DNA from: Pedobacter helvus | GTDB lineage: Bacteria; Bacteroidota; Bacteroidia; Sphingobacteriales; Sphingobacteriaceae | DNA length: 64,000 nucleotides | Direction: 5' to 3' | Assembly: GCF_005925325.1 (NCBI RefSeq) | Contig: NZ_SRMP01000002.1 | Coordinates: forward strand, 772,541-836,540 | In this document: in pieces, positions 40,428 through 63,876 of the stretch | How positions within the stretch are numbered: the stretch's first letter is position 1 | Layout: every line of letters starts with the position of its first letter | Made by a program: the position numbers and the translations under genes | Notes under the pieces: generated by a model | Told to the model about the DNA's origin: nothing | What the model saw: the letters and a program-made list of their open reading frames with translations, nothing else | The model's database searches: none

Positions 40428-40452
40428 ATTAACAACTCAAAAAAACTAAATT

Positions 40453-41688: not shown

Positions 41689-41722
41689 AAGAAAATAATA
41701 ATTACAAAAGAAAACTTTGAAT

Positions 41723-46736: not shown

Positions 46737-46743
46737 CCCAAGG

Positions 46744-49700
46744 ATGAAGTATACCGAATCACAATTAGAGCAAGCTTTTATTAGTCTTTTAGAAATAGAA
46801 GGGTATCAGTATATCAATGGAAAAAGTCTAATAAGAGTTAACAACCAAGAAGTACTGCTCAAAGAAGATTTACGTAATTTCTTAATAAAAAGCTATGCTG
46901 ATTTAGAAGATATTGAAATAGAAAGTATCATTAATGAATTAGCTTTTCAATCGGCTTCTAATTTGTACGATTCGAATAAATACATCTGTAAGCTATTGGC
47001 AGATGGCTTGATCTTTAAACGCAATCATCCAGCAAAAAAAGATTTACATATCCGCTACATCGATTTTAAGGATGTTAATGCTAACCACTTCAAAATTGTA
47101 ACCCAATTAGAAATACAAGGGACAGAACTGCGTATCCCTGATTTGATCTTATACATTAACGGTATTCCTGTAGTAGTTTTTGAATTTAAAACCACTATAG
47201 AAGAAGAAATTACCATTCACGATGCTTATAAGCAATTAACCGTTCGCTATCGTAGAGACATTCCAGAGTTGATGAAATACAATGTTTTTTGTGTGATTAG
47301 CGATGGGGTAAATAATAAAGCAGGCACGGTGTTTTCGCCTTATGAGTTTTACTACGGCTGGAATAAAATAACAGGCGAAGAGAAAAAAGCTTTGACAGGT
47401 ATAGAGACAACCACTTCTATTGTGCATGGCATGCTTAACCAAGAGCGTTTGGTAGATATTATCCATCATTTTGTGCTGTTTCCAGATACATCTAAGCATG
47501 AATTGAAAGTATTGTCGCGTTATCCACAATACTATGCGGCCAATAAGCTCTACCAAAATATAAAAGCGCACCGCAAACCTGAGGGCGATGGTAAAGGTGG
47601 TACCTATTTTGGCGCAACAGGTTGCGGTAAAAGTTATACCATGTTGTATTTGTCGCGTTTGTTAATGCGTTCTACAGATTTGGCCAGTCCAACCATTATC
47701 ATTATCTCAGATCGTACCGATTTAGACGATCAGTTGGCGAAAGATTTTACCAATGCCAAAGATTTTATTGGCGATGAAAATATCATCAACATAGAATCTA
47801 GAGCCGATTTGAGAGCTAAATTACGAGGTAGAGAAAGTGGAGGTGTGTTTTTAACTACGGTACAGAAATTTGCAGAAGATGATGAGATTTTATCAGATAG
47901 GAGTAATATCATCTGTATTTCTGATGAGGCGCATCGTTCGCAGGTGAATTTAGACTTAAAAATTAAGATAGACGAGGAGAAAGGGGTCACTAAATCTTAT
48001 GGGTTTGCTAAGTATCTGCATGATTCGTTACCTAATGCTACTTATGTTGGTTTTACGGGTACGCCTATAGATAAAACCTTGGAAGTATTTGGCGAGGTAA
48101 TAGACCAATATACGATGTTCGAATCGGTAAATGATGAAATTACGGTTCGTTTGGTGTACGAGGGGAGAGCTGCAAAAGTAAATTTAGATTATGATAAGGT
48201 TTCGGAAATAGAAACTTATTATACCAATGCCGTAGCCGAAGGGGCATCCGAGTATCACGTAGAAGCTAGTCAGCGAGCCATTACCAACATGGAAGTAATT
48301 TTGGGCAATACAGATAGAATTAAAGCCATAGCCGAAGATTTTATAGCACATTACGAAAAGCGTGTAGAGGAAAAGGCTACGGTGGTTGGCAAAGCTATGT
48401 TTGTTTGTGCCTCGAGAACTATAGCCTATAAATTGTATCGAGAGATTTTAGCTTTAAGACCACAATGGGAAGAAGCCTGGTTGCCAGACGGTTTAACAGC
48501 TAAAGAACAAAAAGAAATAAAGCCTATTGAGCGTGTAAAGATGATTATGACACGCAATAAGGATGACGAGGAAGCTTTATGGAATTTATTAGGGAATAAG
48601 GATGAACGTAAGGAGTTAGATAGGCAGTTTAAGCAAATTAAATCTAACTTTAAAATTGCCATTGTGGTAGATATGTGGCTAACGGGCTTTGATGTTCCGT
48701 TTTTAGATACTATTTACATTGATAAGCCTCTGCAAACGCATAATCTGATACAGACTATTTCTCGTGTAAATAGAAAGTACCAAGGTAAAGACCGTGGTTT
48801 GGTGGTAGATTATATTGGTATTAAGAAAAACCTAAACAAAGCTTTAGGGATGTTCAATAATCAAACTGCTGCTGATGATTTTGAAGATTTACACCAAGCA
48901 GAGGTTTTGGTAAAAGATCAGGTTGATTTGTTGCGTAAGTTTTTCTATCAGTTTGATAAAACCGACTATTTTCAAGGTTCGCCTGTTGAGCGTTTACAAT
49001 GTTTAAACCGAGCATCGGAATTGGTGCTAAAAACAGAAGACTCTGAAAAGTTCTTTGTAAGTGTTACTAAGAAGCTTAAATCGGCTTATAACTTGGTAAG
49101 TGGCTCGGAGTTGTTTACGCATAAACAGGTAGATGAAATTCACTTCTATTTTGCGGTAAAGTCTATTGTGGTTAAACTAACCAAAGGCGAAGCGCCTGAT
49201 ACAGCACAGATGAACGAAAAGGTAGCCAAAATGGTAGAGGAGGCTATTATTTCTGAAGGTGTAGAAGAAATATTTAAACTGGATGATGCCAAGGCCAATG
49301 CCATAGATTTATTTAACGATAAGTTTATAGAAAAGCTATCGAACTTAGATTTGCCTAACACTAAGATTAAGATATTAGAGCGGTTGTTAGCGCAGTCTAT
49401 CCAAGATTTTAAGAAGGTAAATAAAGTAATGGGACAAGATTTTGCAGAGCGTTTGCAAAGTATTGTAAGTAGATATAATGAACGCAGCGAGCGAGATATT
49501 TTAGATTACGATGGCATACAAGCTGATACCGCTGAGCAGATGCTAGATTTGATTATCAAATTGCGTGAAGAAATGGCTTCGTTTGAAGATTTGGGGATTG
49601 ATTACGAAGAAAAAGCATTTTACGATATTTTGGATATGATCTGTAAGCAATATGGCTTTGAGTTTGATCAAGATGTAATGCTTGAATTGGCCAAAGAAAT

Positions 49701-49881
49701 TAAGCTGATTGTAGATAATACGGCCAAGTATCCAGATTGGAGCGAAAGAGATGATATCAAAGCGCAATTGAAAATGGATATTATCGTGAAGCTTCATCAA
49801 TATGGTTATCCGCCGATTACGCAAGATGATGTTTATAAGAATGTACTAGAGCAAGCTGAGAATTTTAAGAAGAATAGGTAA
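46744..49881 (+). CDS. hsdR: Type I restriction enzyme endonuclease/translocase subunit
   Basis: Cleaves and translocates unmodified DNA with HsdM/HsdS. 1045 residues, usual for the family. N-terminal nuclease domain (about 105-150) with PDLILYINGIPVVVFEFKT (PD...E-x-K); helicase with Walker A GATGCGKS (about 290-297), SDRTDLDDQL, SDEAHRS (about 396-402), GFTGTPI, and late motifs MWLTGFDVP and QTISRVNRKYQG (about 680-692); helical C-domain. It is separated from hsdM-hsdS by three inserted genes (nuclease, rdrA, rdrB). The stop overlaps the mcrB start by one base. Confidence 0.96.
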   Translation: MKYTESQLEQAFISLLEIEGYQYINGKSLIRVNNQEVLLKEDLRNFLIKSYADLEDIEIESIINELAFQSASNLYDSNKYICKLLADGLIFKRNHPAKKDLHIRYIDFKDVNANHFKIVTQLEIQGTELRIPDLILYINGIPVVVFEFKTTIEEEITIHDAYKQLTVRYRRDIPELMKYNVFCVISDGVNNKAGTVFSPYEFYYGWNKITGEEKKALTGIETTTSIVHGMLNQERLVDIIHHFVLFPDTSKHELKVLSRYPQYYAANKLYQNIKAHRKPEGDGKGGTYFGATGCGKSYTMLYLSRLLMRSTDLASPTIIIISDRTDLDDQLAKDFTNAKDFIGDENIINIESRADLRAKLRGRESGGVFLTTVQKFAEDDEILSDRSNIICISDEAHRSQVNLDLKIKIDEEKGVTKSYGFAKYLHDSLPNATYVGFTGTPIDKTLEVFGEVIDQYTMFESVNDEITVRLVYEGRAAKVNLDYDKVSEIETYYTNAVAEGASEYHVEASQRAITNMEVILGNTDRIKAIAEDFIAHYEKRVEEKATVVGKAMFVCASRTIAYKLYREILALRPQWEEAWLPDGLTAKEQKEIKPIERVKMIMTRNKDDEEALWNLLGNKDERKELDRQFKQIKSNFKIAIVVDMWLTGFDVPFLDTIYIDKPLQTHNLIQTISRVNRKYQGKDRGLVVDYIGIKKNLNKALGMFNNQTAADDFEDLHQAEVLVKDQVDLLRKFFYQFDKTDYFQGSPVERLQCLNRASELVLKTEDSEKFFVSVTKKLKSAYNLVSGSELFTHKQVDEIHFYFAVKSIVVKLTKGEAPDTAQMNEKVAKMVEEAIISEGVEEIFKLDDAKANAIDLFNDKFIEKLSNLDLPNTKIKILERLLAQSIQDFKKVNKVMGQDFAERLQSIVSRYNERSERDILDYDGIQADTAEQMLDLIIKLREEMASFEDLGIDYEEKAFYDILDMICKQYGFEFDQDVMLELAKEIKLIVDNTAKYPDWSERDDIKAQLKMDIIVKLHQYGYPPITQDDVYKNVLEQAENFKKNR

Positions 49882-51938
49882 TGAGTCAATTTACAAAATT
49901 AACAGAAGAGGAAGTTGGTGTTTGGAAGAAGGCAATTGATTTGGCTCTTAAAGACTTATACTCTAATGGTTGGGAAGCCAAAAATAATAGTACAAAATTT
50001 GATGTACTGTATCATGAAAAGAGAATTCCGCCGAAACAGGTAATAAGGTTTGTATTCGATTATTTTGGTAAAAATGATATCATGACGAGTATCGCCTCAG
50101 TTAGAGGAGGTGAAGAAGACACTAATAATTTACTGAGAGATTTAGGTTTAACTATAATTGAAAAAAATAAGGAGCGTGTAAGCATATCAAATCTAAAAGA
50201 ATTAAAGAATGCATTAGATGAACGATTTTCGCAACCTGATAGTTTACTTAAAATTGGTAGTGAGGTCAATAACAAGATTTACATTTGGGTTAGCGACAAG
50301 GATAATTATTTTAATACGACTCATGCTCACTATGAGATCTATGTTCGAGATCATGTAATAAACATAGATTTACATTTTGAAGAAAAAGAAACACGAAAAA
50401 GTCTTTCAGATGCACTAGGGGAAATTATTTACCCATTAGAGAAACTGACTTGGCAGAGGTTTAAATCTTCTGTTAGATACACTCAAAGATTTTCTTTCAA
50501 TGAAGAAAATTTGGTAGAAGATGTTTTTAATGCCTTAACAGATTTACATCGATTGACTTATGATAAACTTACGCCTATTTTAATGCCTTTAATAGAAATG
50601 ATGAACTTAGAAGAAACCATAGGGTTAGGACATGGGAAGTTTCCCCTAAACCAAATCCTTTATGGCCCTCCGGGAACTGGTAAGACATATCATACAATTA
50701 ATAAAGCTTTGTCTATCATCGAAAATAAATCGGATGATCAATTAGCGCAAGAAGATAGAGAAGAAATGAAAAGTAGGTATCAGGATTACGTATCTAAGGG
50801 GCAAATTGTGTTCACCACTTTTCATCAGAGTATGGGGTATGAGGACTTTGTTGAAGGGATAAAACCACAGACTGTAAATGAACAGGTGGTTTATGAAGTT
50901 GAGCCAGGTATTTTTAAGTCAATTTGTGATAAGGCAAGAGGAGCAAAGGGAAATTTTGATGAAGTTCTAGAGAAGTTTAAAATAGAAGTTAATCAGGGCG
51001 TTAGGGATAAACCACTAACCATAAAGTCTAAGTCAACTTATTTTGATATTGAGTACAGGGGAACAAATGTATTCTATGTGCAACCGCACAATTCTGCCAA
51101 AGAAAACCCTTGGTATCCAGTTAATATTGAAAATATTAGAAAGGTATTTGAAACGGGAAGCTATGAAAGAATTTATAACGCCACCTATGTTAGAGAAGTC
51201 ATTTCATATTGGGAAAGGGAGTATAAGTTAAAGAAAAGCCTTGGAGTTTCTGAGGAACCTTATGTCTTAATCATCGACGAGATTAACCGTGGTAATGTAT
51301 CGGCCATTTTCGGTGAACTGATTACCCTAATTGAAGAAAGCAAACGTGCTGGCGCTAGTGAAGCGTTAGAACTGACTTTGCCTTATAGCAAAGAGAAGTT
51401 TTCGGTACCCAGTAATCTATACATCATTGGCACTATGAATACTGCTGATAGAAGTGTAGAAGCTTTAGATACAGCTTTGCGTAGGCGTTTCGCTTTTGAG
51501 GAGATGATGCCACAACCATCAAAAATTACTACTGATGGAGCGTTGAAAGAAAACGCAGGTATGTTGGACGGTGTAGATTTGGCTGCGGTATTACGTAAAA
51601 TTAACGAGCGTATTGAAATACTACTAGATGTAGATCATCAAATTGGACATAGTTATTTAATTAATGTGAATGATACGAATGGTTTGGCCAATGCCTTTAA
51701 TAATTGTATTGTACCATTACTAAAAGAGTACTTCTATCATGATGACAGGAAAATTGCCCTAGTGTTGGGGGCTGGATTTATCAATGCAAAAGCGCCGATG
51801 GAAAATATACAGGCCTTATTTCCTGTAATGCAAGGTTTAGAGGTACACGCCATTGATAGTAAGCAGAAGTTTGAACTGAAACCAATTACTCCTGATACCA
51901 TTATTGCAGCTTTACAAACCTTATTGAACGGTGGCTAA
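49881..51938 (+). CDS. mcrB: McrB-type GTPase of a McrBC restriction system
   Basis: NTPase that drives cleavage of DNA with modified cytosine together with McrC. 685 residues. The N-terminal part (about 1-230) holds unfamiliar DNA-reading domains (WKKAIDLALKDLYSNGWEAKNNS; RIPPKQVIRFVFDYF; IWVSDKDNYFNTTHAHYEIYVRD). The AAA+ domain has Walker A YGPPGTGKT (about 261-269), FTTFHQSMGYEDFVEGI (about 312-328), Walker B LIIDEINRGNVSAIFGEL (about 463-480) and IGTMNTADRS (about 515-524), which are McrB hallmarks. It starts at the last base of the hsdR stop and overlaps mcrC by 8 bases. Confidence 0.93.
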   Translation: MSQFTKLTEEEVGVWKKAIDLALKDLYSNGWEAKNNSTKFDVLYHEKRIPPKQVIRFVFDYFGKNDIMTSIASVRGGEEDTNNLLRDLGLTIIEKNKERVSISNLKELKNALDERFSQPDSLLKIGSEVNNKIYIWVSDKDNYFNTTHAHYEIYVRDHVINIDLHFEEKETRKSLSDALGEIIYPLEKLTWQRFKSSVRYTQRFSFNEENLVEDVFNALTDLHRLTYDKLTPILMPLIEMMNLEETIGLGHGKFPLNQILYGPPGTGKTYHTINKALSIIENKSDDQLAQEDREEMKSRYQDYVSKGQIVFTTFHQSMGYEDFVEGIKPQTVNEQVVYEVEPGIFKSICDKARGAKGNFDEVLEKFKIEVNQGVRDKPLTIKSKSTYFDIEYRGTNVFYVQPHNSAKENPWYPVNIENIRKVFETGSYERIYNATYVREVISYWEREYKLKKSLGVSEEPYVLIIDEINRGNVSAIFGELITLIEESKRAGASEALELTLPYSKEKFSVPSNLYIIGTMNTADRSVEALDTALRRRFAFEEMMPQPSKITTDGALKENAGMLDGVDLAAVLRKINERIEILLDVDHQIGHSYLINVNDTNGLANAFNNCIVPLLKEYFYHDDRKIALVLGAGFINAKAPMENIQALFPVMQGLEVHAIDSKQKFELKPITPDTIIAALQTLLNGG

Positions 51939-53157
51939 ACCTAAACTGATACAGGTATTTGAACATCAGCGATTGCTTAAAAACAATACGTATGATGGCG
52001 TTTGCTTCGAAGATCGGTACTTCAAGGCTTTGTTGAAGTTGAATGAGCTGCACAATAGCAAATACTTCACACCTACTTATGAGGGTTTGAAGTTTGACAG
52101 TTACGTAGGTGTGCTGCAAATTGATGATTTGGTAATTGAAGTATTACCAAAAGTAGAGGGGTATACCGCTGAAAAAAACCAATGGCGAGATGTGTTGATT
52201 GAGATGCTGCGAGTAACACATCAGCTAAAGGTAAATGAGGTAGGGCAGGCTAGTGTTGCCAAACAAAGTATTCATTTATTGGATATTTATTTCGATTGGT
52301 TTTTGAGAGAAGTAGAACAACTGGTTCATGCTGGTTTAATTAAGCAGTATCGCAAGGAGACTAAAAACACCTTAGCGCTGAAAGGAAAGTTGGAGTTTGC
52401 GGGGCATATCCGAAAAAACTTGGTGCATCAAGAACGGTTTTATACCACACATCAAGTGTACGACAAAGATCATTTGTTGCATAAAATAATGAATGAAGCT
52501 TTGCAGGTGGTAGAAACGATGTCAAAAGGCACTTATCGCTATGGACGCTGTAAAGCTGTGCAGCTGAACTTTCCAGAAATGAGCACTTTGAAGGTAGTAG
52601 CACAGACTTTTGATAAAATTATATTTAATCGTAAGAACCAAGCTTACCAAACGGTAATTGCTTTGGCAAGGCTGATCATTTTGAACTATTCGCCCAATGT
52701 TAAACATGGTGATGAGCAGATGTTGGCCTTGATGTTTGATATGAATGATTTGTGGGAGAAGTATGTGTTAGCTAAATTGAAGCAACAAGCTGGTAGCGAA
52801 TGGTTAGTAAAAGGACAGGATAGCAAAACATTTTGGGAGAACAAATCTATTAAGCCTGATATCGTGTTACAGCATGTGTTGACCCGAACCAATGTCATTG
52901 TTGATACCAAATGGAAGAACTACGCATATGATAAGATAGGATTGGATGATTTGCGACAAATCTATGTATATAACGATTTTTGGGAGGCTGAGTTAGGAAT
53001 GTTATTATACCCTAGTCCAACTGAGACGAAGATTGCAGTTAAGGGTACCTACGCTAAAAATGGTTATCAAGGTAAAATAGGTTTAGCTACGGTTTTAACG
53101 GCAGATGGCAAGCTAAATAAAGATTTGGGATCGGATATTTTTGACTTACTATCATGA
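51931..53157 (+). CDS. mcrC: McrC nuclease subunit of a McrBC restriction system
   Basis: Supplies the PD-(D/E)XK endonuclease to McrB. A 408-residue protein. The N-domain (about 1-120) has YEGLKFDSYVGVLQIDDLVIEVLPK; the C-domain shows ALMFDMNDLWEKYV (about 266-279), SIKPDIVL (about 305-312) and VIVDTKWK (about 322-329), i.e. the D...D-x-K nuclease core. The start is GTG at 51931, inside the end of mcrB; no ATG fits. It is the last gene of the defence operon; 53158-53325 shows nothing. Confidence 0.92.
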   Translation: MAKPKLIQVFEHQRLLKNNTYDGVCFEDRYFKALLKLNELHNSKYFTPTYEGLKFDSYVGVLQIDDLVIEVLPKVEGYTAEKNQWRDVLIEMLRVTHQLKVNEVGQASVAKQSIHLLDIYFDWFLREVEQLVHAGLIKQYRKETKNTLALKGKLEFAGHIRKNLVHQERFYTTHQVYDKDHLLHKIMNEALQVVETMSKGTYRYGRCKAVQLNFPEMSTLKVVAQTFDKIIFNRKNQAYQTVIALARLIILNYSPNVKHGDEQMLALMFDMNDLWEKYVLAKLKQQAGSEWLVKGQDSKTFWENKSIKPDIVLQHVLTRTNVIVDTKWKNYAYDKIGLDDLRQIYVYNDFWEAELGMLLYPSPTETKIAVKGTYAKNGYQGKIGLATVLTADGKLNKDLGSDIFDLLS

Positions 53158-53325
53158 ACACCCTGATTAAATCAGCATGTGTTGAAGACATTTCGGCAGC
53201 TTAGAGATTTTTATATTTAGCTTTAGATGATTTGCCTAGCTTGAAGTGACTTTATCGTTAAACAAGGTTTTAAATATCAGCTGAAAAATCCTGAAAAGTA
53301 TTTAAACTAATGAAAATAATATGTG

Positions 53326-53859
53326 CTATTGTTTACGATCAATATGAGATAACACGTAATAGATATTACCTCCATTAGTTTCTTCTAATGCTATGCCAAC
53401 AGCTATTTTCTTTTTGCCAATTTCCCACTTGTAAGCTTCAAAAGCTTTACCATTTTGCATCTTTTCTTGTTTCGGATAACCTCGGTTATGTTGTGGTTCG
53501 CCATAGGTTGTGACAAAATACTGTTTAAGCAAATCCATTTTGTTAAATAGTGCTTGATCAAATTTTTTATTGCCGATGGTAGTAGTGTCAACTAAATAGA
53601 TCATGTTTAGCTTCTGTGCATCATTAAAGTAAGAGGTGATATTATAGACCCTTTCGCCTAATTTTACCAAAGAGTCTGGATGTAATTGATTAAACTGTTG
53701 TTCTGACATACCAAACTTAGTATCGGCAATGGCAATATTTTCTGTGACTTTAATTAAGCTATCAGTGATAACAGTGGCTTTTCTTTCATTGCTGTATGTG
53801 CAAGAGAAAAGGACTAATGTAGCGGAAATGAATATTAAGATTAAGAAGCGATTATTCAT
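53326..53859 (-). CDS. Hypothetical lipoprotein
   Basis: A 177-residue lipoprotein with lipobox LVLFSC (Cys20). The body contains ADTKFGMSEQQFNQLHPDSLVKLG and YFVTTYGEPQHNRGYPKQEKM, reminiscent of small periplasmic proteins that have one mixed alpha/beta domain (FGMSxxxF...YG.P pattern), with no catalytic motif visible. I do not recognise a function. Opposite strand to the defence operon and next to tRNA-like relics. Confidence 0.65.
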   Translation of the reverse strand: MNNRFLILIFISATLVLFSCTYSNERKATVITDSLIKVTENIAIADTKFGMSEQQFNQLHPDSLVKLGERVYNITSYFNDAQKLNMIYLVDTTTIGNKKFDQALFNKMDLLKQYFVTTYGEPQHNRGYPKQEKMQNGKAFEAYKWEIGKKKIAVGIALEETNGGNIYYVLSHIDRKQ

Positions 53860-53908
53860 TAGTGTAAATGGTTGAGATGCATGATGAAATGTGAAAACTC
53901 TCTAGGAG

Positions 53909-54000
53909 GTGCGGAAGAAGGGACTCGAACTTCTAGTAAAATGAACTTGTTTTTTAGGTTTGTACCCAGGACCGGGATCGAACCAGAAAGTTTTCCTTCT
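53909..54000 (-). pseudogene. tRNA 3'-end-like relics
   Basis: On the minus strand two pieces look like the T arm and acceptor 3' half of tRNAs. One is CTGGTTCGATCCCGGTCCTGG with a 4-bp T stem (about 53965-53987). The other is GTTCGAGTCCCTTCTTCCGC (about 53910-53932), whose T stem has lost bases. Neither has a 5' half, so no functional tRNA can be drawn. Such fragments are typical scars of integration at tRNA genes. Confidence 0.5.
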
Positions 54001-54018
54001 AGCTAACTGACGATTTTT

Positions 54019-54264
54019 CTATTTATCAGCTAATTTAGAAAAATCTAATAATTCGGGTACTGATATTTTCAAATTATCCGCGATTAATTTAACGCTGCTA
54101 ATGGATACATTTGTCTCAGCTCTTTCAATACGTCCAATTTGCCGAGTATCCAAGCCAGTCAGTTCTTGAAGCTTTTCTTGTGTTATATTTTTTGCTTCAC
54201 GTATTTCAATTATTCGTTTTCCTAGTTTGACTAAATATTCTTGATCTCGGTATTGTTTTCCCAC
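54019..54264 (-). CDS. XRE-family helix-turn-helix regulator
   Basis: An 81-residue DNA-binding protein with one HTH_3 domain (about 12-70; LGKRIIEIREAKNITQEKLQELTGLDTRQIGRIERAETNVSI). The start codon is GTG at 54262-54264; no in-frame ATG precedes it. A perfect operator-like palindrome lies 33 bases upstream (54297-54314), and a structured RNA region is transcribed away from it, so it probably represses itself and possibly the RNA. No toxin partner is adjacent. Confidence 0.88.
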   Translation of the reverse strand: MGKQYRDQEYLVKLGKRIIEIREAKNITQEKLQELTGLDTRQIGRIERAETNVSISSVKLIADNLKISVPELLDFSKLADK

Positions 54265-54296
54265 TCTGCAAAGTCCATATATTATTAAAAAAATAT

Positions 54297-54314
54297 TAGG
54301 ACATATTTGTCCTA
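54297..54314. promoter_or_regulatory. Operator-like palindrome between the XRE gene and the structured RNA
   Basis: TAGGACA-TATT-TGTCCTA, perfect 7-bp arms, sits in the divergent intergenic region. It is the best candidate binding site for the adjacent XRE protein. Confidence 0.65.
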
Positions 54315-54332
54315 TTTATAAATGATTTTATT

Positions 54333-54340
54333 TATATTTG
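54333..54340 (+). promoter_or_regulatory. -7 box for the structured RNA
   Basis: TAtaTTTG is a full -7 match, 42 bases before the long hairpin. The nearest upstream TTTG (54306-54309, overlapping the palindrome) is 23 bases away, longer than the usual spacer, so promoter strength is uncertain. A repressor on the palindrome would cover the upstream element. Confidence 0.5.
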
Positions 54341-54381
54341 ATTTAATAAATAGGTATTAATAAGAGTCTTGCAATTCCTAA

Positions 54382-54725
54382 TCTCACGCCGATGACGCAA
54401 GACAGCAGTTTAATGCCCATGTCTATATGTAGATGTATATATTTGTACATCGAAATAGATGTGGGGCTGCTGTAAATCCATGTCATCTTAAGGCGTGAGA
54501 ACTTTAAAGGAGTTGTGGTGTGCAGTCCCACATGTATTATCTGGGCTATACTGCCAACAAGACTCGTATAAACCAATACGAGCTCATGAAAAATCGTTTC
54601 ATTCATTTGTATACCAAACTGATCAGTTTGGTTAAGCGCAATCCAGAATAGTTTGCCGTTTCCCAAACGGCAGCGGTTTAGGTAATATGGTTAATAATTA
54701 AAATTTAGCTGCCGTTTGTTTTTTT
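54382..54725 (+). ncRNA. Candidate structured RNA with long nested hairpin and terminator/antiterminator pair
   Basis: A 119-base hairpin is built from nested pairings: TCTCACGCC/GGCGTGAGA (54382-54390/54492-54500), GATGAC/GTCATC, CAGCAG/CTGCTG, CATGTCTAT/ATAGATGTG with G-T pairs, and GATGTA/TACATC around an 8-base loop. Smaller hairpins follow (TGTGG...CCACA about 54514; CTCGTAT...ATACGAG about 54563) and a perfect 20-bp palindrome at 54613-54632. The end has CAAACGGCAGC (54664-54674) pairing with GCTGCCGTTTG (54708-54718) before seven T, while GCCGTTT...AAACGGC (54655-54671) competes for the same bases. A 27-codon frame (54394-54477) runs through the hairpin. No known RNA family is recognised. 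Confidence 0.6.
54708..54725 (+). terminator. Terminator 3' arm with T run, part of a possible switch
   Basis: GCTGCCGTTTG with TTTTTTT closes an 11-bp perfect stem with 54664-54674 across a 33-base loop. The upstream hairpin 54655-54671 is mutually exclusive with it, which is the layout of an attenuator. Confidence 0.7.
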
Positions 54726-54900
54726 CTTCTATCGCATTAGTCCCGAACTCGCTTCGGAAGACGAGAGGGGTAGGCAATGCCAATAAACTTGTAGATATCT
54801 CCGCTACGGTCGATATGACGCAAGCTGGGCGAGGTCTGCAAGGTTTGAACTAAACAACCAAAAAACTAACAAACTAATCAACCAATTAAATAAAATATTA

Positions 54901-54974
54901 GAGGCTTCTTGTGGCGCCGTGGGGTGAGGTCTATTGGCTCTCGTCGAGCATTTCAGATGCACGCAATTCGTTTA
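54901..54974 (+). ncRNA. Candidate guide-RNA scaffold, copy A
   Basis: A 74-base element from GAGGCTTCTTGTGGCGCCG to CAATTCGTTTA. It can form GGTG/CGTC and GCAT/ATGC hairpins. A second copy starts 166 bases downstream with base changes that preserve both stems. The sequence directly after CAATTCGTTTA differs between copies, as expected for a guide. It lies 380 bases before the sigma-like gene and 1.25 kb before the Cas12f-like gene. No promoter box is evident. Confidence 0.4.
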
Positions 54975-55066
54975 AATATCAACCTAGATACCAATAATCA
55001 ATGAACAAATAGCCTGACTAAACAACAAAAAAAATTAAATACCTAAGCAACTAATCAACAAAAATT

Positions 55067-55138
55067 GAGGTGTCTTGTGGCGCCGTAGGGCGGGGTAGTA
55101 GCACTCGCCAAGCATGTAAGGTGCACACAATTCGTTTA
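55067..55138 (+). ncRNA. Candidate guide-RNA scaffold, copy B
   Basis: A 72-base relative of copy A (GAGGTGTCTTGTGGCGCCG ... CAATTCGTTTA) with GGCG/CGCC where copy A has GGTG/CGTC, and GCAT/GTGC where copy A has GCAT/ATGC. Both stems are thus kept. The flank that follows (CATAACCAAATAATACAGTA) is unrelated to that of copy A. The rest of 54730-55354 is A-rich low-complexity sequence without a gene. Confidence 0.4.
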
Positions 55139-55354
55139 CATAACCAAATAATACAGTAGACAGTTTGTGAAGAGTAAAGAATAAAGAGCAAGGAACAAGT
55201 AATAATTAAGTGAATAATCAATATCCAAATACCAATAATCAAATTACAGCTGCCCAAAAGATAACCAAAAATTAAACACCTAACCAACCAAATTGGGGTT
55301 TCGCTCCGCTCAAAATGAACTAGTGAACCAATGAGTAATGAACCAATAAAATTA

Positions 55355-56215
55355 ATGCTGCCTATGTTATTACGTAAAATTAAAATTAGCCCTGCAGGCG
55401 ATTACTTGAAGTTACTGGCCGAGGGTAACGAACGGGGTCTGGCCTTCTTTTATAAGCGCTTTTTTAACACCTTTTACATCAGGGCATTTAGGGGTACCAA
55501 GTAAGACTGCTGTGCTGCAGCCAGTATAGTGCAGGAAGCCTTTTTGAAGCTATGGCTGTGCAGGGAGCAGGTAAAGACGGAGCAGGAACTGCTTGGTTTT
55601 CTACAGAGGCAGGTAAATGCAAACATTTATGCCTACTATGAAAAGTCGCAAACCAGATTTCAGCGTTCGCTATTGCAGGTAGATAGTCTCGAAAATGCAG
55701 ATGATTACCTATTGAGGGATAACCCATTGTCAGAAGAAAGTGAAGATCTATTGCTGCTGGATGAGCTGGAAAGTGAGCGCAGGGCGCAACTGTTACAGCT
55801 AAAAAAGCTATTACCTACCTTAAAAAGCGAGCAGAAACTATTTATACGTTTGTGCCTTAAATACAGCTTTAATTACGACCGCATTGCATATTACCTGGGC
55901 GGCATTTCTGACTACGAGGTAGGGATGAAGTTAGAGGCGATGCTGGCAGAGCTGCGGCAGATTTTTACCAGCAGTGATAAACTGGCGCTAATTAACCGAA
56001 AGGAAACGAAATTTAACTTGGAGGGTAATTTTAGCAGGCAGCAGGAAGAGGTGTTTAGGATGCGCTATACCTTGCGCTATTCTTTTGAACAGATTGCTGA
56101 AGCAATGCAACTGAGCGAACAGGAGGTAAAACGTTTGTTTGTGACTGCGCATGCGGTGGTGGGGATAAGCAGGAAGCAAGGAATACGGAATAGAGCGCAA
56201 AGAATTACCAAATGA
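55355..56215 (+). pseudogene. ECF-like RNA polymerase sigma factor interrupted by an in-frame stop
   Basis: From the ATG at 55355 the frame gives KIKISPAGDYLKLLAEGNERGLAFFYKRFF..., then a TAA at 55502-55504 (codon 50), then continues in the same frame DCCAAASIVQEAFLKLW... to 56215. Joined, this is 286 codons of a sigma-70 region 2 (about 18-85; SIVQEAFLKLW is its classic end) and two helix-turn-helix segments (about 150-200 and 228-275; FSRQQEEVFRMRYTLRYSFEQIAEAMQLSEQEVKRLF is region 4). A GTG at 55529 could restart translation but without most of region 2. It ends 9 bases before the Cas12f-like gene, which has its own AAGGAG site, so the two form an operon. Either a pseudogene, a read-through product or a sequencing error. 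Confidence 0.75.
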
Positions 56216-56224
56216 TAAGGAGAC

Positions 56225-57331
56225 ATGGAAGAAAATAAAACCACTGAAACGGTTATTTTAACCAGGAAAATACAGCTTTTATTGGATTGTGATGACCAAG
56301 AGCAGCGCAGTTTATATTATCAGCGCCTGTTTGCTTGGTCGGATATGGTATACAAGGGTGCCAATTTGGTGTTAAGCCATCAATATCTTTTAGATCATTT
56401 AAAAATGGTACCTTATTTAAACGAGAGGGTAAAGATAAAAATTGCTGATGCGGCTAAAGATGCGGATGGGGTGTTGTGTACCTCAAAGATGAATGCAACT
56501 TACAGGGTGTTGACTTCCTATTATAAAGGGGAGCTGCCTTCGGCGGTGATATCGCCTTTAAGCCAAGCCTTGTTTAAGCTTTACAGGAGCGAAAGCTTAG
56601 CCTATAGCAGGGGCGAGCGCTCGTTGCGCAGTTACAAAAGAGGAATGCCCATTCCTATTTTGGGCAGCCAACTAAAATTAGCTCCTCACGAAAAAGCTAG
56701 GGAGTTTAAGGTTGGCTTGCTGCAAATCCCATTCCGTACTTTTTTAGGAAAAGACAAAACAGATAAGAGGTTGTTGTTGCAGCGTACCATGTTAGGTAGG
56801 GTAAAGGTTTGCAGTTGTGCCTTGAAAATAGTGGAAGGTAAGCTGTTTCTATTGCTTGCGGTTGAAATGCCCAAGAAGGCAAACCCTTTACAGCCACATG
56901 TAATTGCCGAAGCAAGTTTGGGCATGGAGCATCCTATTGGGGTAAACGTGGGCAAACAGTATTTGCATATAGGACACAAGGAAGAGTTCTTGCACCGTAG
57001 GTTGGCCATACAGGCGGCCATGCAGCGGGTACAGAAAGCTATGGCCTATAATGTTGGTGGGCGTGGTAAAAAACGAAAGCTAAATAGTATGGAACGCTTT
57101 AAGGATAAAGAAAAAGCCTATGTAGATAGCAAATTGCATTTATACAGCAGGAAGTTGATAGATTTTTGTGTGAAACACAGGGCGGGTACGCTGTTGTTGG
57201 TGAACCAGCAGGCCAAGGAAGAGGTGGCTAAGGAGGATGCTTTTTTACTGCGCAATTGGAGTTATTATGGTTTGATAGAGAAGATTAAATACAAAGCGAA
57301 AATGGCAGGGATAAATTTGATTGTGGAGTGA
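56225..57331 (+). CDS. Nuclease-dead Cas12f/TnpB-like protein
   Basis: A 368-residue Cas12f-like protein. The N-terminal half has TRKIQLLLDCDDQEQ, MNATYRVLTSYY and the Cas12f-type RGERSLRSYKRGMPIPI (about 130-145); the RuvC half has HPIGVNVGKQ (about 237-245), GGRGKKRKLNSMERFKDKEKAYVDSKLHLYSRKLIDF (about 278-314) and LLRNWSYYGLIEKIKYKAKMAGI (about 341-363). In active enzymes the first motif is GIDLG and the second an EDL; here Asn241 and Asn327 replace the catalytic Asp and Glu. The protein stops at INLIVE, before the zinc finger and third RuvC motif. It should bind guide RNA and DNA but not cut. The sigma-like gene upstream suggests RNA-guided transcription. Confidence 0.85.
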   Translation: MEENKTTETVILTRKIQLLLDCDDQEQRSLYYQRLFAWSDMVYKGANLVLSHQYLLDHLKMVPYLNERVKIKIADAAKDADGVLCTSKMNATYRVLTSYYKGELPSAVISPLSQALFKLYRSESLAYSRGERSLRSYKRGMPIPILGSQLKLAPHEKAREFKVGLLQIPFRTFLGKDKTDKRLLLQRTMLGRVKVCSCALKIVEGKLFLLLAVEMPKKANPLQPHVIAEASLGMEHPIGVNVGKQYLHIGHKEEFLHRRLAIQAAMQRVQKAMAYNVGGRGKKRKLNSMERFKDKEKAYVDSKLHLYSRKLIDFCVKHRAGTLLLVNQQAKEEVAKEDAFLLRNWSYYGLIEKIKYKAKMAGINLIVE

Positions 57332-57594
57332 GGAATGAAGAGATAATGGTTAATGATAAATGAGGGGGACGGATAGCAATAAACAAATTCCAATGATCAA
57401 TTTACAATGGGTTAGTAGCTATTCATTACCCTTTGCTTCAGCTGACGGCTAGAAATAGTAATTGAATGAACAGTATGCATTTTTTAGTTAACCGATTAAC
57501 CAATTACACGCTTAACCCAATGAACTAATGCCCAGCGAACCAATGAACTAATGAACTGATGACCAATGAACCAATAACACCACTCAAGGCCAGC

Positions 57595-57710
57595 TCCACA
57601 CATCCTCCACACATGGTCAACACAAGGATGACACATGAATCACACAACAATGACACATAAAAGGTACATGAATCACACAAGAACAACACATGAATCACAC
57701 ATAAATAATG
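57595..57710. repeat. Low-complexity ACATGAATCACACA repeats
   Basis: The motif ACATGAATCACACA occurs three times (about 57634, 57667, 57689) with related ACACAT words between. 57332-57594 is AT-rich, full of AATGAACCAATG-like words and shows no gene. Spacing and spacers are not those of a CRISPR array. Confidence 0.6.
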
Positions 57711-57857
57711 GTTAATGATAAAGGCTTAATGTTTAATGAGCGAGGAATAATGGCCGATGAACTAATGAACAATCATCAATTTCCAATTTGCCTCCCCGAT
57801 ATATCGGGGTTTCGCTTCGCTCAAAATGAACCAATGACGAAAAAAGGTATAGCATTA

Positions 57858-59290
57858 CCTCCCAATTCATATCGAGGTGAGGTTAAAAAATACTCCCGCA
57901 TTAAGTCCCGAACTCGCTTCGGGAGACGGGAAAGGATGGGCAGTGCTAATGAACTTTGAGATTGCTTGTCCCGATGTGATCGGGACGGGCTGGCTCGCAC
58001 CTACCAAGGCGTTGCAATGACGGAAAAGAGGACGGAATATGGGTTATAGCAAGAGCAGTAGCATTGCTAAGTACAAAAGATGGCCTCTTGGCATAGCGAC
58101 GTGTAAACCGATAAAACGTGAGTAGATTAGATAGGGCTTGTACAAACAAGCTGGGTGCAGAAGTGTAGTAGATACGACAGTTACGAAATAGCTTCCACAC
58201 GTTTCAGCCAGCGCTATTAAAGTTTTATCGAGTTGTAACAAGCTAGGCTAAGCAGCCTTGATTTTTTGGTATCTTTTGTATCAAGACAAAAGATACTAGG
58301 GCAGCCGCCAGACCTGTCCAGATTTTATATTGGGGTGAGGCTAAAAATACTACAGCATCACATCCCACTCACTTCGGGATACGGTTAAGAATGAGCAGTA
58401 CTAAAGAATCTGGAGATTGCTTTCCCGATGGATCGGGACAAGCCGGCTCACACCTACCAAGGCCTTGCAATGACGGAAAAGAGGACGGAATATGGGTTAT
58501 GGCAAGAGCAGTTGCATTGCTAAGTACGAAAGATGGCCTCTTGGCATAGCGCTGTGTAAACCGATAAAATGTAAGTAGATTTAATAGGGTTTGTACAAAC
58601 AAGCTGGGTGCAGAAGTGTAGTAGAAACGACAGTTACGAAATAGCTTTCACACGTTTCAGCCAGCGCTATTAAAGTTTTATCGAGTTGTAACAAGCTAGG
58701 CTAAGCAGCCTTGATTTTTTGGTATCTTTTGTATCAAGACAAAAGATACTAGGGCAGCCGCCAGACCTGTCCCGATTTCATATCGGGGTGAGGCTAAAAA
58801 TACTACAGCATCACATCCCACTCACTTCGGGATACGGTTAAGAATGAGCAGTACTAAAGAACCTGGAGATTGCTTTCCCGATGGATCGGGACAAGCCGGC
58901 TCACACCTACCAAGGCCTTGCAATGACGGAAAAGAGGACGGAATATGGGTTATGGCAAGAGCAGTTGCATTGCTAAGTACGAAAGATGGCCTCTTGGCAT
59001 AGCGCTGTGTAAACCGATAAAATGTAAGTAGATTTAATAGGGTTTGTACAAACAAGCTGGGTGCAGAAGTGTAGTAGATACGACAGTTACGAAATAGCTT
59101 TCACACGTTTCAGCCAGCGCTATTAAAGTTTTATCGAGTTGTAACAAGCTAGGCTAAGCAGCCTTGATTTTTTGGTATCTTTTGTATCAAGACAAAAGAT
59201 ACTATGGCAGCCGCCAGACCTGTCCCGATTTCATCGGGGTGAGGCTAAAAAAATAACAGCATTACGTCCCGAACCCGCTTCGGGAGACAT
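57858..59290. repeat. Three tandem 453-bp non-coding repeats plus partial fourth
   Basis: Units begin at about 57858, 58312 and 58765 with a partial unit from 59218; landmarks such as GTAC-AAAGATGGCCTCTTGG fall at 58071, 58524 and 58977, exactly 453 bases apart. Units 2 and 3 are nearly identical and unit 1 is diverged. Each has a CCCGAT...ATCGGG hairpin, a segment ending in the inverted repeat GTATCTTTTG/CAAAAGATAC, and CACACGTTTCAGCCAGCGC. The 77-codon antisense frames inside are repeat artefacts. 59291-59650 shows nothing further. Confidence 0.85.
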
Positions 59291-59653
59291 TAAGGGCAGT
59301 GCTTAAGAACCTAGCTTAGTAAACCCTCTCCGAGAACTCGGAGCAAGTTCTGCCATTAGCATTTATTGATGTGTAGTAGTTTGTGTTCATTTATTTCAAT
59401 GAGCACGCTACGCATCGGTTCTCCCTAAAAGGGCAAGAAAAGATAGTGATCATCATAAGTATAACAAAACCAAATACTGGTCAAAACCAGCCAATCCTTT
59501 GAGGATTATATTACGCTAACTGGGTAAAAATGACAACGATATGATATTCTAAAAATCTTGAGAATTATGTAGAAAGTTGGGTTTGCTGTACAAATACAAA
59601 AGCTTTTTATTAAAGGCACGTCTTTGGATAAGGCTTACACCAAGTAGGCTAAA

Positions 59654-59661
59654 TAAGTTTG
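59654..59661 (+). promoter_or_regulatory. -7 box of the collagen-like gene
   Basis: TAagTTTG lies 27 bases before the ATG at 59689. The upstream TTTG (59623-59626) is too far for the usual spacer, so the promoter is weak or depends on another factor. Confidence 0.45.
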
Positions 59662-59688
59662 GCACCCTACATCTATCTACGTTAAACT

Positions 59689-62600
59689 ATGAAGAGAATT
59701 ATACGCACTACGGCACTTTGTGCCCTGTTGGTGGCTGCTGCAGAATTGGCACAGGCCCAAGTTAAGATCGGAGATAATCCGACTGTAATTAATAAAGCAT
59801 CAATTTTAGAACTAGAAAGCAGCACTAAAGGTTTGCTGTTCCCTAGGGTAAGTTTAATTAATACTACCACTTGGAGCTTGGCTTCGGGCAGCACGCCTGT
59901 AGCGGGGATGATGGTCTATAACATCAAAACCGTAGCTTCAGGTTTTTCGGGTACAAGCGCTTATCCGGCAATAGCTGGGGACGGTACAGGGATTTACTAC
60001 TGGGACGGCAATGGATGGGTGGCCGCTAAGGGGCTAAATGGAGCCGATGGTAAATCGGTAACTGGAGCAGCAGGAGCACCGGGTGCAACTACTCCAGGTA
60101 ATGAGGGCGATACTTATATCAATACCACCACTGGAGATACCTATATCAAACAAGGCAATACTTGGGTGTTAAATGGTAACATCAAAGGCGCTAAAGGTGA
60201 TCCTGGTGTGGTAGGTGTTCAGGGAATGCCAGGAACAAACGGTACGCCAGGTACTCCGGGTTCGGGTACTCCAGGTGCACCGGGAGCCGGTGTTACTATT
60301 GTAACTAATGATAGCGGTACCTGGGTTTATAACCCAACAACCAATACATGGACGAATATCAACGGTCCGAAAGGAGATAAAGGTGATCCTGGCGTGGTAG
60401 GCGTTCAGGGCATGCCTGGCAGCGGTACCCCTGGTACTCCTGGCACCCCTGGTGGTCCCGGAGCTGGCGTAACCATTGTAACTAATGATAGCGGAACTTG
60501 GGTTTACAATCCAACAACCAATACATGGACGAATATCAACGGTCCAAAAGGAGATAAAGGTGATCCTGGCGTGGTAGGCGTTCAGGGCATGCCTGGCAGC
60601 GGTACCCCTGGTACTCCTGGCACCCCTGGAGGTCCCGGAGCTGGCGTAACCATCGTAACCAATGATAGTGGTACCTGGGTTTACAATCCAAGCACCAATA
60701 CATGGACGAATATCAACGGTCCAAAAGGAGATAAAGGTGATCCTGGCGTAGTGGGCGTTCAGGGCATGCCAGGAAGCGGTACCCCTGGTACTCCTGGCAC
60801 CCCTGGAGGTCCCGGAGCTGGCGTAACCATCGTAACCAATGATAGTGGTACCTGGGTTTACAATCCAACAACGAATACTTGGACGAACATCAACGGTCCG
60901 AAAGGCGATAAGGGTGATCCTGGCGTGGTAGGCGTTCAGGGTATGCCTGGCAGCGGTACCCCTGGTACTCCTGGCACCCCTGGAGGTCCCGGAGCTGGCG
61001 TAACCATCGTAACCAATGATAGCGGTACCTGGGTTTATAATCCAACCACCAATACATGGACGAATATCAACGGTCCAAAAGGAGATAAAGGTGATCCTGG
61101 TGTAGTGGGCGTTCAGGGTATGCCAGGAAGCGGTACCCCTGGTACTCCTGGCACCCCTGGAGGTCCCGGAGCTGGCATCACCATCGTAACCAACGATAGC
61201 GGTACTTGGGTTTATAATCCAAGCACCAATACTTGGACGAATATCAACGGTCCGAAAGGTGATAAAGGAGATGCAGGTACTTTCACAGCGACAGTAGATA
61301 ATGGTTTAAATTTTTCAACGCCTACCAACATTCAGTTGGGTGGTACATTGATTAAACCAACAACCATCACTACAGATGCAACTCAAACCTTAGCTATTGC
61401 GGGTTTACAATCCGGCGTTGCGACAGGTGCCACACCAGATAAAATTGTAGTTGCCGACCCAACAACTGGTGTACTTAAACAGGTGGACAGATCAACATTT
61501 GATGCAGACTTGCGCTTAGTTGGAACTCGAAACCACATCACGAAAGACGCCGGAGTGGGTAGCAATGGAACAAATGGAGGATTTGCCGATAATATTTTTA
61601 TTGGCCAAAATGTTGGATCAGCATCTACTAATGCAAGCGGACAATCTAATGGAAACGTTGGTATTGGTACTAATGCATTGAAAGATAATATAGGCATTAA
61701 TAACGTTGCTATCGGACTTGGTGCAGCTGTGCTTAACAAATCTGGATCTTTGAATACAGCTGTGGGTGCTTATGCACTACAGAATAATACCGACGGAGGT
61801 AGTAACGCAGGTTTCGGTCATTGGAGTTTGTCAAATACTACTACTGGAAATGAAAATACAGCGGTAGGAACACGTTCGGGAAATAACATCACCACGGGCT
61901 CTTGGAATATTACTTTAGGAAGTCAGGCTTGGGTTCCATCGGCAACGGCAAGTAACCAATTAAGCATCGGAAACTTGATTTATGGAACTGGTTTAGATGG
62001 AAGATTTCCAAACATTTCAACAGGAAATATAGGTATAGGTGTTAAAGCGCCTTCTGAGAAATTAGATATCAACGGAAGGTTACGTGTAAGAACATTTGAC
62101 CCTGGATTAACTACGGATAATTTCGTTGTAGCGGATGCAAATGGTGTATTAAAAACAGTGCCTTCTACGTCAATAAATGCTACTGATTGGCATATTACAG
62201 GTAATGTAGGGACAACAGCAGCTAATTTTTTAGGAACGACAGACGATGTTCCATTGAATTTTAAAATTGATAATACTGTTGCTGGTAATGTAAGTAAAAC
62301 AGGTACCTCGTTTGGTTACAAAGCTAATACGGGTACCGGAGATCACAACACGGCTTTCGGCTTAGAGGCATTGTCGCTTGTGACTACCGGACTTAACAAT
62401 ACCGCAATGGGAGCTCAGGCTCTTCGAGTAAACACAGGTAGTGCAAATACGGCTTTCGGTAACGAAGCGCTGGTATCAAACACTACAGGAGGTGCCAACG
62501 TAGCGGTAGGTAATTATGCGATGCGTATGAGCACCACCGGTACGGGAAATACGGCTTTAGGTAATAGTGCAATGAGCCAAAATACCCAAGGTGCATTAAA

Positions 62601-63876
62601 CGTTGCAATAGGAGGTAATGCTTTATTACGTAATACAACAGGATTTGATAATGTGGCTTTAGGAACAGGTAGTCTTCAGACCAATACCACTGGTTATAGG
62701 AATGTAGCTATAGGTGGCTCGGCAGATGTTTCAGCAGATAACTTAACAAATGCTATTGCTATAGGTTTTCAGTCTAGGGTAGGAGCAAGTAATAGTTTAG
62801 CACTTGGAGGTACAGATTTTTATCAGGTAAATGTGGGTATCAATACACCAACCCCTTCAAATAAATTACATATAGTAGGTAATGGAACGGCAGATCCTGT
62901 ACGTATTGAAGGATTACAAGCTGGTGCAGCTACCGATAACATGGTGGTAGCAGATGCTTCAGGTGTGTTAAAGACTTTAGCAATCCCATCGTCTGTCAAC
63001 ATTTACAACGCGAACGGTTCACTAACAAGTAACAGAGTAGTAACCTTAGCCGGAAAAAACCTTACGTTTACTTCACCAGAAAGAGATATTGTTTTTGATA
63101 GTAATGGACGTATTGCCAATATTGCAAAAACTGGTTATGAAGCGGATATATTTTTGAGTTCAGGTTCTGGAGCAACTTATAACCGTTTTGATTTGCAGTC
63201 ATTTTCAAATGGCCAAACTAATTTAACAGCAAGTGGGGCAGGAGCGCAACAGTTATTGCTAGGTACACATGCTACTCAGGTTGCTGCACCATTGTTATTT
63301 TCGACAAGTTCAGGTGGCGGTGCTTTGGGAACAGAAAAAATGCGTATCACCGGTACTGGTAACGTAGGTATTGCTGCGAACGTCCCTACTGAAAAGTTAG
63401 ATATTGGGCAAGGAAATGTACGTATCAGGGATATCAATTCAAATACAGGTGCTGCATCAGATAAAGTTGTGGTTGCTGATGCTACAGGGGTTTTAAAGAC
63501 AGTTTCTGCTGTTGCTCCTCAGTTCTTCTATACCCCTTCTCTTGTACTACCTACATCCAATAGCAATTTACCAAGCTACGTAACTTACGCTGGAGGTACA
63601 TTTACAGTAAATCTGCATGGTGTATATGCAAGCCAATTTGGTATGGCGGGTAATGTATCTGGTGCGGCAAGAACAGCTATAAAGAGCCCTACGGCTACCA
63701 CATTACCTGTGCTTGGAGCGGCAGCTTTAGAGTACTTTGTAACCTATTTCGATAATACTGTATTTGATCCAGCTTCTATTACATTGTCAGATGCCGGCGT
63801 ATTAACTTATCAAGTATTAAGTACAGGAACTGTAAGCGAAAAAACTTATATGAACATCGTATTTAAGGTGAAATAG
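59689..63876 (+). CDS. Secreted collagen-like / YadA-head-like repeat protein
   Basis: A 1395-residue surface protein. Signal peptide MKRIIRTTALCALLVAAAELAQA; N-domain (about 24-125; IGDNPTVINKASILELESSTKGLLFPRVSL), common at the start of Bacteroidetes fibre-like proteins; collagen-like Gly-X-Y segments alternating with GVTIVTNDSGTWVYNPTTNTWTNIN (about 165-525); then a long stretch of YadA-head-type repeats (about 640-1120; NTAVGAYALQNNT, NVAIGGNALLRNTTG) interspersed with KLDINGRLRVRT-like linker modules; and a C-terminal beta domain (about 1270-1395). It is probably a fibrous trimeric surface protein or adhesin. No T9SS sorting motif is visible at the end. It follows 2.3 kb of non-coding repeats and has its own terminator. 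Confidence 0.82.
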   Translation: MKRIIRTTALCALLVAAAELAQAQVKIGDNPTVINKASILELESSTKGLLFPRVSLINTTTWSLASGSTPVAGMMVYNIKTVASGFSGTSAYPAIAGDGTGIYYWDGNGWVAAKGLNGADGKSVTGAAGAPGATTPGNEGDTYINTTTGDTYIKQGNTWVLNGNIKGAKGDPGVVGVQGMPGTNGTPGTPGSGTPGAPGAGVTIVTNDSGTWVYNPTTNTWTNINGPKGDKGDPGVVGVQGMPGSGTPGTPGTPGGPGAGVTIVTNDSGTWVYNPTTNTWTNINGPKGDKGDPGVVGVQGMPGSGTPGTPGTPGGPGAGVTIVTNDSGTWVYNPSTNTWTNINGPKGDKGDPGVVGVQGMPGSGTPGTPGTPGGPGAGVTIVTNDSGTWVYNPTTNTWTNINGPKGDKGDPGVVGVQGMPGSGTPGTPGTPGGPGAGVTIVTNDSGTWVYNPTTNTWTNINGPKGDKGDPGVVGVQGMPGSGTPGTPGTPGGPGAGITIVTNDSGTWVYNPSTNTWTNINGPKGDKGDAGTFTATVDNGLNFSTPTNIQLGGTLIKPTTITTDATQTLAIAGLQSGVATGATPDKIVVADPTTGVLKQVDRSTFDADLRLVGTRNHITKDAGVGSNGTNGGFADNIFIGQNVGSASTNASGQSNGNVGIGTNALKDNIGINNVAIGLGAAVLNKSGSLNTAVGAYALQNNTDGGSNAGFGHWSLSNTTTGNENTAVGTRSGNNITTGSWNITLGSQAWVPSATASNQLSIGNLIYGTGLDGRFPNISTGNIGIGVKAPSEKLDINGRLRVRTFDPGLTTDNFVVADANGVLKTVPSTSINATDWHITGNVGTTAANFLGTTDDVPLNFKIDNTVAGNVSKTGTSFGYKANTGTGDHNTAFGLEALSLVTTGLNNTAMGAQALRVNTGSANTAFGNEALVSNTTGGANVAVGNYAMRMSTTGTGNTALGNSAMSQNTQGALNVAIGGNALLRNTTGFDNVALGTGSLQTNTTGYRNVAIGGSADVSADNLTNAIAIGFQSRVGASNSLALGGTDFYQVNVGINTPTPSNKLHIVGNGTADPVRIEGLQAGAATDNMVVADASGVLKTLAIPSSVNIYNANGSLTSNRVVTLAGKNLTFTSPERDIVFDSNGRIANIAKTGYEADIFLSSGSGATYNRFDLQSFSNGQTNLTASGAGAQQLLLGTHATQVAAPLLFSTSSGGGALGTEKMRITGTGNVGIAANVPTEKLDIGQGNVRIRDINSNTGAASDKVVVADATGVLKTVSAVAPQFFYTPSLVLPTSNSNLPSYVTYAGGTFTVNLHGVYASQFGMAGNVSGAARTAIKSPTATTLPVLGAAALEYFVTYFDNTVFDPASITLSDAGVLTYQVLSTGTVSEKTYMNIVFKVK
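60364..61251 (+). repeat. Five 177-bp tandem coding repeats (59 codons)
   Basis: Units starting at 60364, 60541, 60718, 60895 and 61072 encode a collagen-like stretch plus a WVYNPTTNTWTNIN module. They are near-identical, so recombination could change the copy number. Confidence 0.9.

Follow-up and report, generated by a model that had tools for sequence, protein, structure and literature searches.

The closest described counterparts of the locus analyzed here are the dCas12f-sigmaE systems of Bacteroidota, represented by the PDB entries 9n9c, 9n9m, 9n9o, and 9n9q. According to a preprint from 2025 and these PDB entries, a guide RNA reportedly leads dCas12f and the sigma factor of such a system to a site where RNA polymerase starts transcription. 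Details of these published systems were used in the comparison with a locus in the window, i.e., the whole stretch of 64,000 nucleotides of Pedobacter helvus DNA that was analyzed. The locus shares with them the same full-length protein family that misses the RuvC acids, an adjoining RpoE-type sigma gene with guide RNA genes nearby, and, as seen in its relatives, sites that follow a G upstream of susC. It differs from them in that its sigma gene holds a stop codon, no convincing target was found in the same genome, its guides are fused to the scaffold (natural single guides), and the proteins have diverged. The type of system is already known, and the copy in the window is probably a further member that has been inactivated. 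More specifically, the locus is very probably an RNA-guided dCas12f-sigmaE transcription locus of the Sphingobacterium type, which is likely decaying or idle here, with its sigma gene interrupted.

Two other groups of systems are related to this locus. TldR proteins, which according to PMC13418256 repress transcription, are likewise RNA-guided, cutting-dead RuvC proteins that act on transcription; the window protein differs in being nearer to Cas12f than to TnpB and in being paired with a sigma factor. Type V-F CRISPR-Cas systems have the same protein fold and a tracr-like scaffold, whereas the window protein is devoid of the active-site acids and of the C-terminal part, and the window has two single guides instead of an array.

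The dcas12f gene (56225..57331, forward strand) encodes a protein of 368 amino acids, and its designation as a Cas12f/TnpB-like open reading frame (ORF) in the first-pass annotation was borne out by end-to-end alignment of the product with the dCas12f of PDB entry 9n9c (E 2.9e-104), in which residues 9-367 align with residues 5-364 of the 365-aa chain 9n9c_A. The structural comparison with Cas12f and TnpB that had been proposed alongside returned a Cas12f fold, with dCas12f structures as the best matches and Cas12f structures ranking above those of TnpB. Within the best 120 of 628 related proteins, which were the ones covered, P0111 is 94% identical to the window protein. The suggestion that the protein is truncated before RuvC-III and the zinc finger was not upheld; the 365-aa PDB protein and the relatives share the same C-terminal end, and the short C-terminus is native. 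The last alignment column is common to 40 of the 44 relatives, the true exceptions being L022, which is cut by a contig end, and L027, in which the dCas12f frame is broken. The fragments L043 and L045, which are devoid of the N-terminal part, also end at this column.

Profile alignment to nuclease-active Cas12f proteins was used to place the RuvC columns, and revealed that the RuvC nuclease active site of type V-F is absent from the window protein. The column of the RuvC-I Asp corresponds to Ser231 (alignments to 9nzr, 9nzo, 8hr5, and 9nzp) and that of the RuvC-II Glu to Val326 in the ungapped alignment to 8hr5; with 9nzr and 9nzo the aligner introduced gaps nearby, which makes the neighboring Asn327 a candidate as well. 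Most likely, therefore, the RuvC-II Glu was replaced by Val326, or else by the adjoining Asn327. Over 45 aligned rows, window included, column 231 contains S (39), A (2), T (2), or a gap (2), column 326 contains V (36), I (5), L (2), T (1), or a gap (1), and column 327 contains N (43), G (1), or a gap (1). Since an acid is absent from these three columns in every row, the catalytic loss is family-wide. Asn241 occupies a non-catalytic column (K in 25 rows, N in 2). The earlier proposal that Asn residues at positions 241 and 327 mark the lost acids was thus correct as to the loss and incorrect for Asn241, in whose place Ser231 is to be read, with Asn327 possible and Val326 likelier.

Upstream of dcas12f lies an RpoE-like ECF sigma gene (55331..56215, forward strand), composed of the ORFs 55331-55504 and 55529-56215, which are in the same frame and separated by a TAA at 55502-55504 (forward strand), codon 58 of a 294-codon frame. 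The open downstream part (55529-56215) comprises 228 aa, and the gene may start with the ATG at 55367, like that of the related protein P0001. The sigma ORF matches the RpoE of 9n9q (chain 9n9q_C; E 1.8e-27), an entry that holds both RpoE and a dCas12f of the 9n9c type, and Pfam detected sigma-70 region 4 in it, with TIGR02937 staying below its cut-off. Because dcas12f begins 9 nt after the sigma ORF on the same strand, the description of an ECF-like sigma gene 9 bases upstream stands, as does the observation that this gene is broken. In a protein search, P0001 was found to be intact (279 aa), with 99% identity across 98% of the 228-aa part; further relatives share 89% (P0002), 87% (P0003), 85% (P0004), and 73% (P0005) identity; all five proteins read through the position of the TAA. 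As a near-identical intact sigma factor exists elsewhere, the lesion is either local to this strain or an assembly error. In a sigma profile search of the own genome, the broken gene scored 322 bits and none of the 19 other matches exceeded 34 bits; no second sigma gene comparable to the broken one was found.

Sigma neighbors, which had been proposed as a feature to be sought beside homologues, were present in 42 of the 44 related loci, mostly within 20 nt and at most 750 nt from dcas12f; the two loci without a sigma match are short dCas12f fragments, one of them at a contig end. The sigma match is split between two frames beside an open dcas12f in L012, L021, and L044, and stops short of region 4 in L003.

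Two guide RNA genes, which the first-pass annotation had missed, stand upstream of the sigma gene on the forward strand. Gene 1 (54901..54984) consists of a scaffold at 54901-54967 and a 17-nt guide at 54968-54984, and gene 2 (55067..55148) of a scaffold at 55067-55131 and a guide at 55132-55148; their scores were 49.1 and 50.4 bits, respectively, with the covariance model R1, which was built from 54 scaffold copies that include both of these. The scaffold motif was reached from direct repeats upstream of the sigma gene and then refound at related systems, and the guide start was placed by analogy with relatives, in which the match to the target begins right past the end of the repeat. The alignment of the 54 copies contains 14 predicted base pairs, of which 9 have changes on both sides in some sequence. 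Folding of single sequences was ambiguous, as copy 2 folded better than most shuffles (z -2.19) and copy 1 no better (z 0.87).

The scaffold was detected at 33 of 35 related loci examined, including all 13 full-length Sphingobacterium loci and all 20 same-genus loci with wide flanks (17 by motif, and L051, L056, and L061 by R1); the motif search found none at the fragment loci L043 and L045. Two additional candidates in the own genome (21.5 and 19.7 bits) were rejected because of their position within or at the beginning of ORFs, and among three weaker matches the one that was read (L138) overlaps an ORF. A search of positions 52000-60000 with Rfam gave no match, and the window showed no enrichment of a Bacteroidota-type promoter pattern.

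In 10 of the 13 full-length Sphingobacterium loci, degenerate CRISPR-like arrays are kept upstream of the sigma gene (e.g., L031:5139-6985 and L036:5204-7010), which is a likeness to type V-F. These arrays have a period of about 65-66 nt, which is the spacing of most of their 11-23 repeat-motif matches (a few being outliers), and comprise tracr-like scaffold copies; no degenerate array was found in L037, L040, and L044. Guide 2, within the stretch 55129-55150, matches the array unit at L041:6109 along some 25 bases, the unit having one additional T; the unit at L036:6015 shows one further difference beyond this extra T. This guide is thus common to both genera despite a dCas12f identity of only ~60%, which suggests a conserved target.

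The origin of the locus was addressed by comparison with these relatives. dCas12f occurs in 27 of 145 genomes of the genus of the window, own genome included; in this survey 30 of 41 places became loci, 20 of which were taken with wide flanks. The window protein shares 44-50% identity with full-length copies of its own genus and 58-61% with Sphingobacterium copies, and in a tree of 42 dCas12f proteins it groups with 13 Sphingobacterium proteins (support 100/99), apart from 28 same-genus copies. Moreover, the guide genes stand upstream of the sigma gene in 13/13 Sphingobacterium loci, as they do in the window, and in the 20 same-genus loci they are located downstream (16), between the genes (3), or upstream alone (1; L047). 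Taken together, the tree, the identities, and the upstream layout of the guides are most simply read as transfer of the locus between genera, a reading that calls for caution because no end branch of the tree is longer than that of the window protein (0.64).

Targets of the relatives' guides were sought in their own genomes at up to 2 mismatches for two groups of guides, G031/G041/G067 and G025/G072. This yielded 17 and 7 places, respectively, and the total of 24 is made up of 6 guide genes (counting L114, which lies behind a scaffold copy), 12 places inside ORFs of at least 100 aa, and 6 intergenic sites. Reversed-pattern controls matched 33 places (first pattern) and 1 place (second pattern); as the control exceeds the matches for the first pattern, the number of matches by itself is uninformative there, and the evidence lies in the position of the sites and the preceding base. 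A G precedes 6/6 intergenic sites versus 1/12 sites in ORFs. The intergenic sites are G025:C4 and G025:C38 (1 mismatch each), G072:C5 (2 mismatches), G031:C1 and G041:C14 (0 mismatches each), and G041:C31 (2 mismatches), and with the exception of G025:C38 all have a susC-type ORF downstream, either directly or past a thioredoxin-like gene. Pfam analysis identified TonB-receptor domains in all five susC-type ORFs, SusD domains in the three partners that were run (L115, L119, and L189), and a thioredoxin-type domain in L118. The G031 and G041 sites share leaders, as do G025:C4 and the G072 site, and they represent about three independent cases.

For G067, no site among its matches was called a target. 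For the guide group G076/G030, each of the 4 non-self places found, at 2 mismatches, fell within an ORF or at its start, and none was a clear target. In S. griseoflavum, 17 non-self places (up to 3 mismatches) were found versus 10 in the control, and none of the 7 that were read was clear; one place, L151, is intergenic, follows a G, and has 3 mismatches, at 51 nt before an HTH-like ORF. The rule of a G-flanked upstream site was thereby seen in 2 of the 4 guide groups tested, in genomes G025, G031, G041, and G072. Local matches of the array guides of the 13 Sphingobacterium loci gave no clear target.

For the guides of the window itself, the search of the own, 99.85%-complete assembly found no convincing target for guide 1 or guide 2. 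At up to 3 mismatches, self included, the 18-mer of guide 1 had 10 matches versus 16 for the reversed control, and that of guide 2 had 22 versus 21. Contexts were read for 23 of the 30 non-self matches, the other 7 being guide 2 matches without loci, and a search with the seed plus G gave 14 matches, 14/14 inside ORFs. Four candidates were taken as chance matches. Two of these belong to guide 2, look intergenic, have 2 mismatches, and lack a preceding G: L077 stands 21 nt before an ORF that we take to be FecR-like, and L079 overlaps the end of an ORF. The other two are intergenic and follow a G, each with 3 mismatches: downstream of L067 (guide 1) no ORF of 100 aa lies on the same strand, and L086 (guide 2), whose three mismatches all fall in the first eight bases, precedes a 495-aa ORF by 33 nt. 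In its Sphingobacterium form, guide 2 had 76, 107, and 83 places in G000, G146, and G147, respectively, versus 122, 122, and 102 for the reversed control, and no target was found among the 30 of these 266 places that were read in the three genomes. One of the places in G000, L165, is preceded by a G, has 2 mismatches, and stands 80 nt upstream of a 282-aa ORF. Post hoc, a 13-base stretch of the guide region of the window was noticed to recur in the leader of the susC loci L118/L119.

In working relatives, a complex of dCas12f and guide RNA would bind a site of ~17 nt that has a G in front of it and stands ahead of an uptake operon of the susC/susD type, and the bound dCas12f would keep the sigma factor in place, allowing RNA polymerase to initiate transcription close by. 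The parts of such a system in the window are the two natural single-guide RNA genes, the ECF sigma gene, and the nuclease-dead Cas12f gene. We infer RNA binding, sigma recruitment, and activation from published work and from the titles and molecule names of PDB entries, and the sequence evidence presented here agrees with the mechanism published for dCas12f-sigma systems. The assembly of this genome has the stop in the first part of the sigma gene, and the activation step has therefore probably been lost here. The pair had been proposed to act as an RNA-guided transcription system; this is supported as to the type of system, by the protein family, the sigma pairing, and the guide genes, and needs amendment in that the stop has probably switched the system off here. 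A locus of the predicted RNA-guided activator type could be recognized from raw sequence, together with the places of its guide RNAs, and the targets of its relatives become readable as about 17 nt past the scaffold, with sites after a G and often upstream of susC/susD operons.

The interrupted sigma gene can be explained in other ways. The stop might be a sequencing or assembly error, with a working RNA-guided activator in the strain, as would agree with the stop being the only one in its frame, with the known intact protein of 99% identity, and with an open dcas12f beside two guide scaffolds that score well. We nevertheless consider this unlikely, as a convincing guide target was not found in the own genome and the split sigma genes beside open dcas12f genes in three relatives indicate that such lesions are not unusual. 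The same split genes, together with the fully open dcas12f of the window and the sharing of guide 2 by two genera, could also be taken to mean that dCas12f functions without its own sigma factor, either as a TldR-like RNA-guided roadblock repressor or in partnership with one of the ECF-like sigma factors behind the 19 weak matches in the genome. This is decidedly improbable, considering that no convincing site to repress was found, that the runner-up among the sigma genes reaches 34 bits, compared with 322 for the broken gene, and that the lesion looks recent and persistence of dcas12f needs no function. There is, likewise, a slim chance that the dCas12f-guide pair was orphaned by loss of its sigma factor, while keeping the guide common to both genera, and acts alone as an RNA-guided DNA-binding regulator, in which case sigma-dependent activation would have given way to control without sigma.

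That the gene is a decayed IS200/IS605 tnpB standing beside a sigma gene by chance is hardly credible. Some relatives are named 'transposase' in databases, and the window protein has a match to the TnpB model NF040570, below its cut-off; against this stand the frequency of the sigma pairing among the related loci, the guide RNAs and the C-terminal end common to the relatives, and dCas12f as the best structural match. The preferred reading remains that of a dCas12f-sigmaE locus with an interrupted sigma gene, and the window copy thereby represents a natural sigma-minus variant beside close intact sisters (sigma 99%/89%, dCas12f 94% identical), comparison with which could reveal the role of dCas12f without its sigma factor.

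Besides the system itself, several features of its surroundings were recorded. A small HTH regulator is encoded upstream on the reverse strand (54019..54264) and may be linked to the system; HTH-like genes are found upstream of the sigma gene in 3 of 5 loci listed (L036, L037, and L044). Positions 39255-53157 contain a defense island with a type I specificity subunit, a PDC-S26-like protein, a type I restriction subunit (1203.7 bits), and, presumably, an McrBC-like pair. At 41717-46736, an ATPase-like ORF (797 aa; labeled by eye, no PADLOC match) is followed by an RdrB-like ORF (877 aa, E 1.7e-33), and this pair is possibly a RADAR defense system. On the other side of the locus, a repeat with an 11-bp period is present at 57600-57717, and just past dcas12f, at 57978-59183, there are three copies of a 453-bp unit, of which 300 nt are 94-95% identical to the first. 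Finally, a 1395-aa ORF at 59689-63876 encodes collagen-like G-x-x repeats and long repeated blocks.
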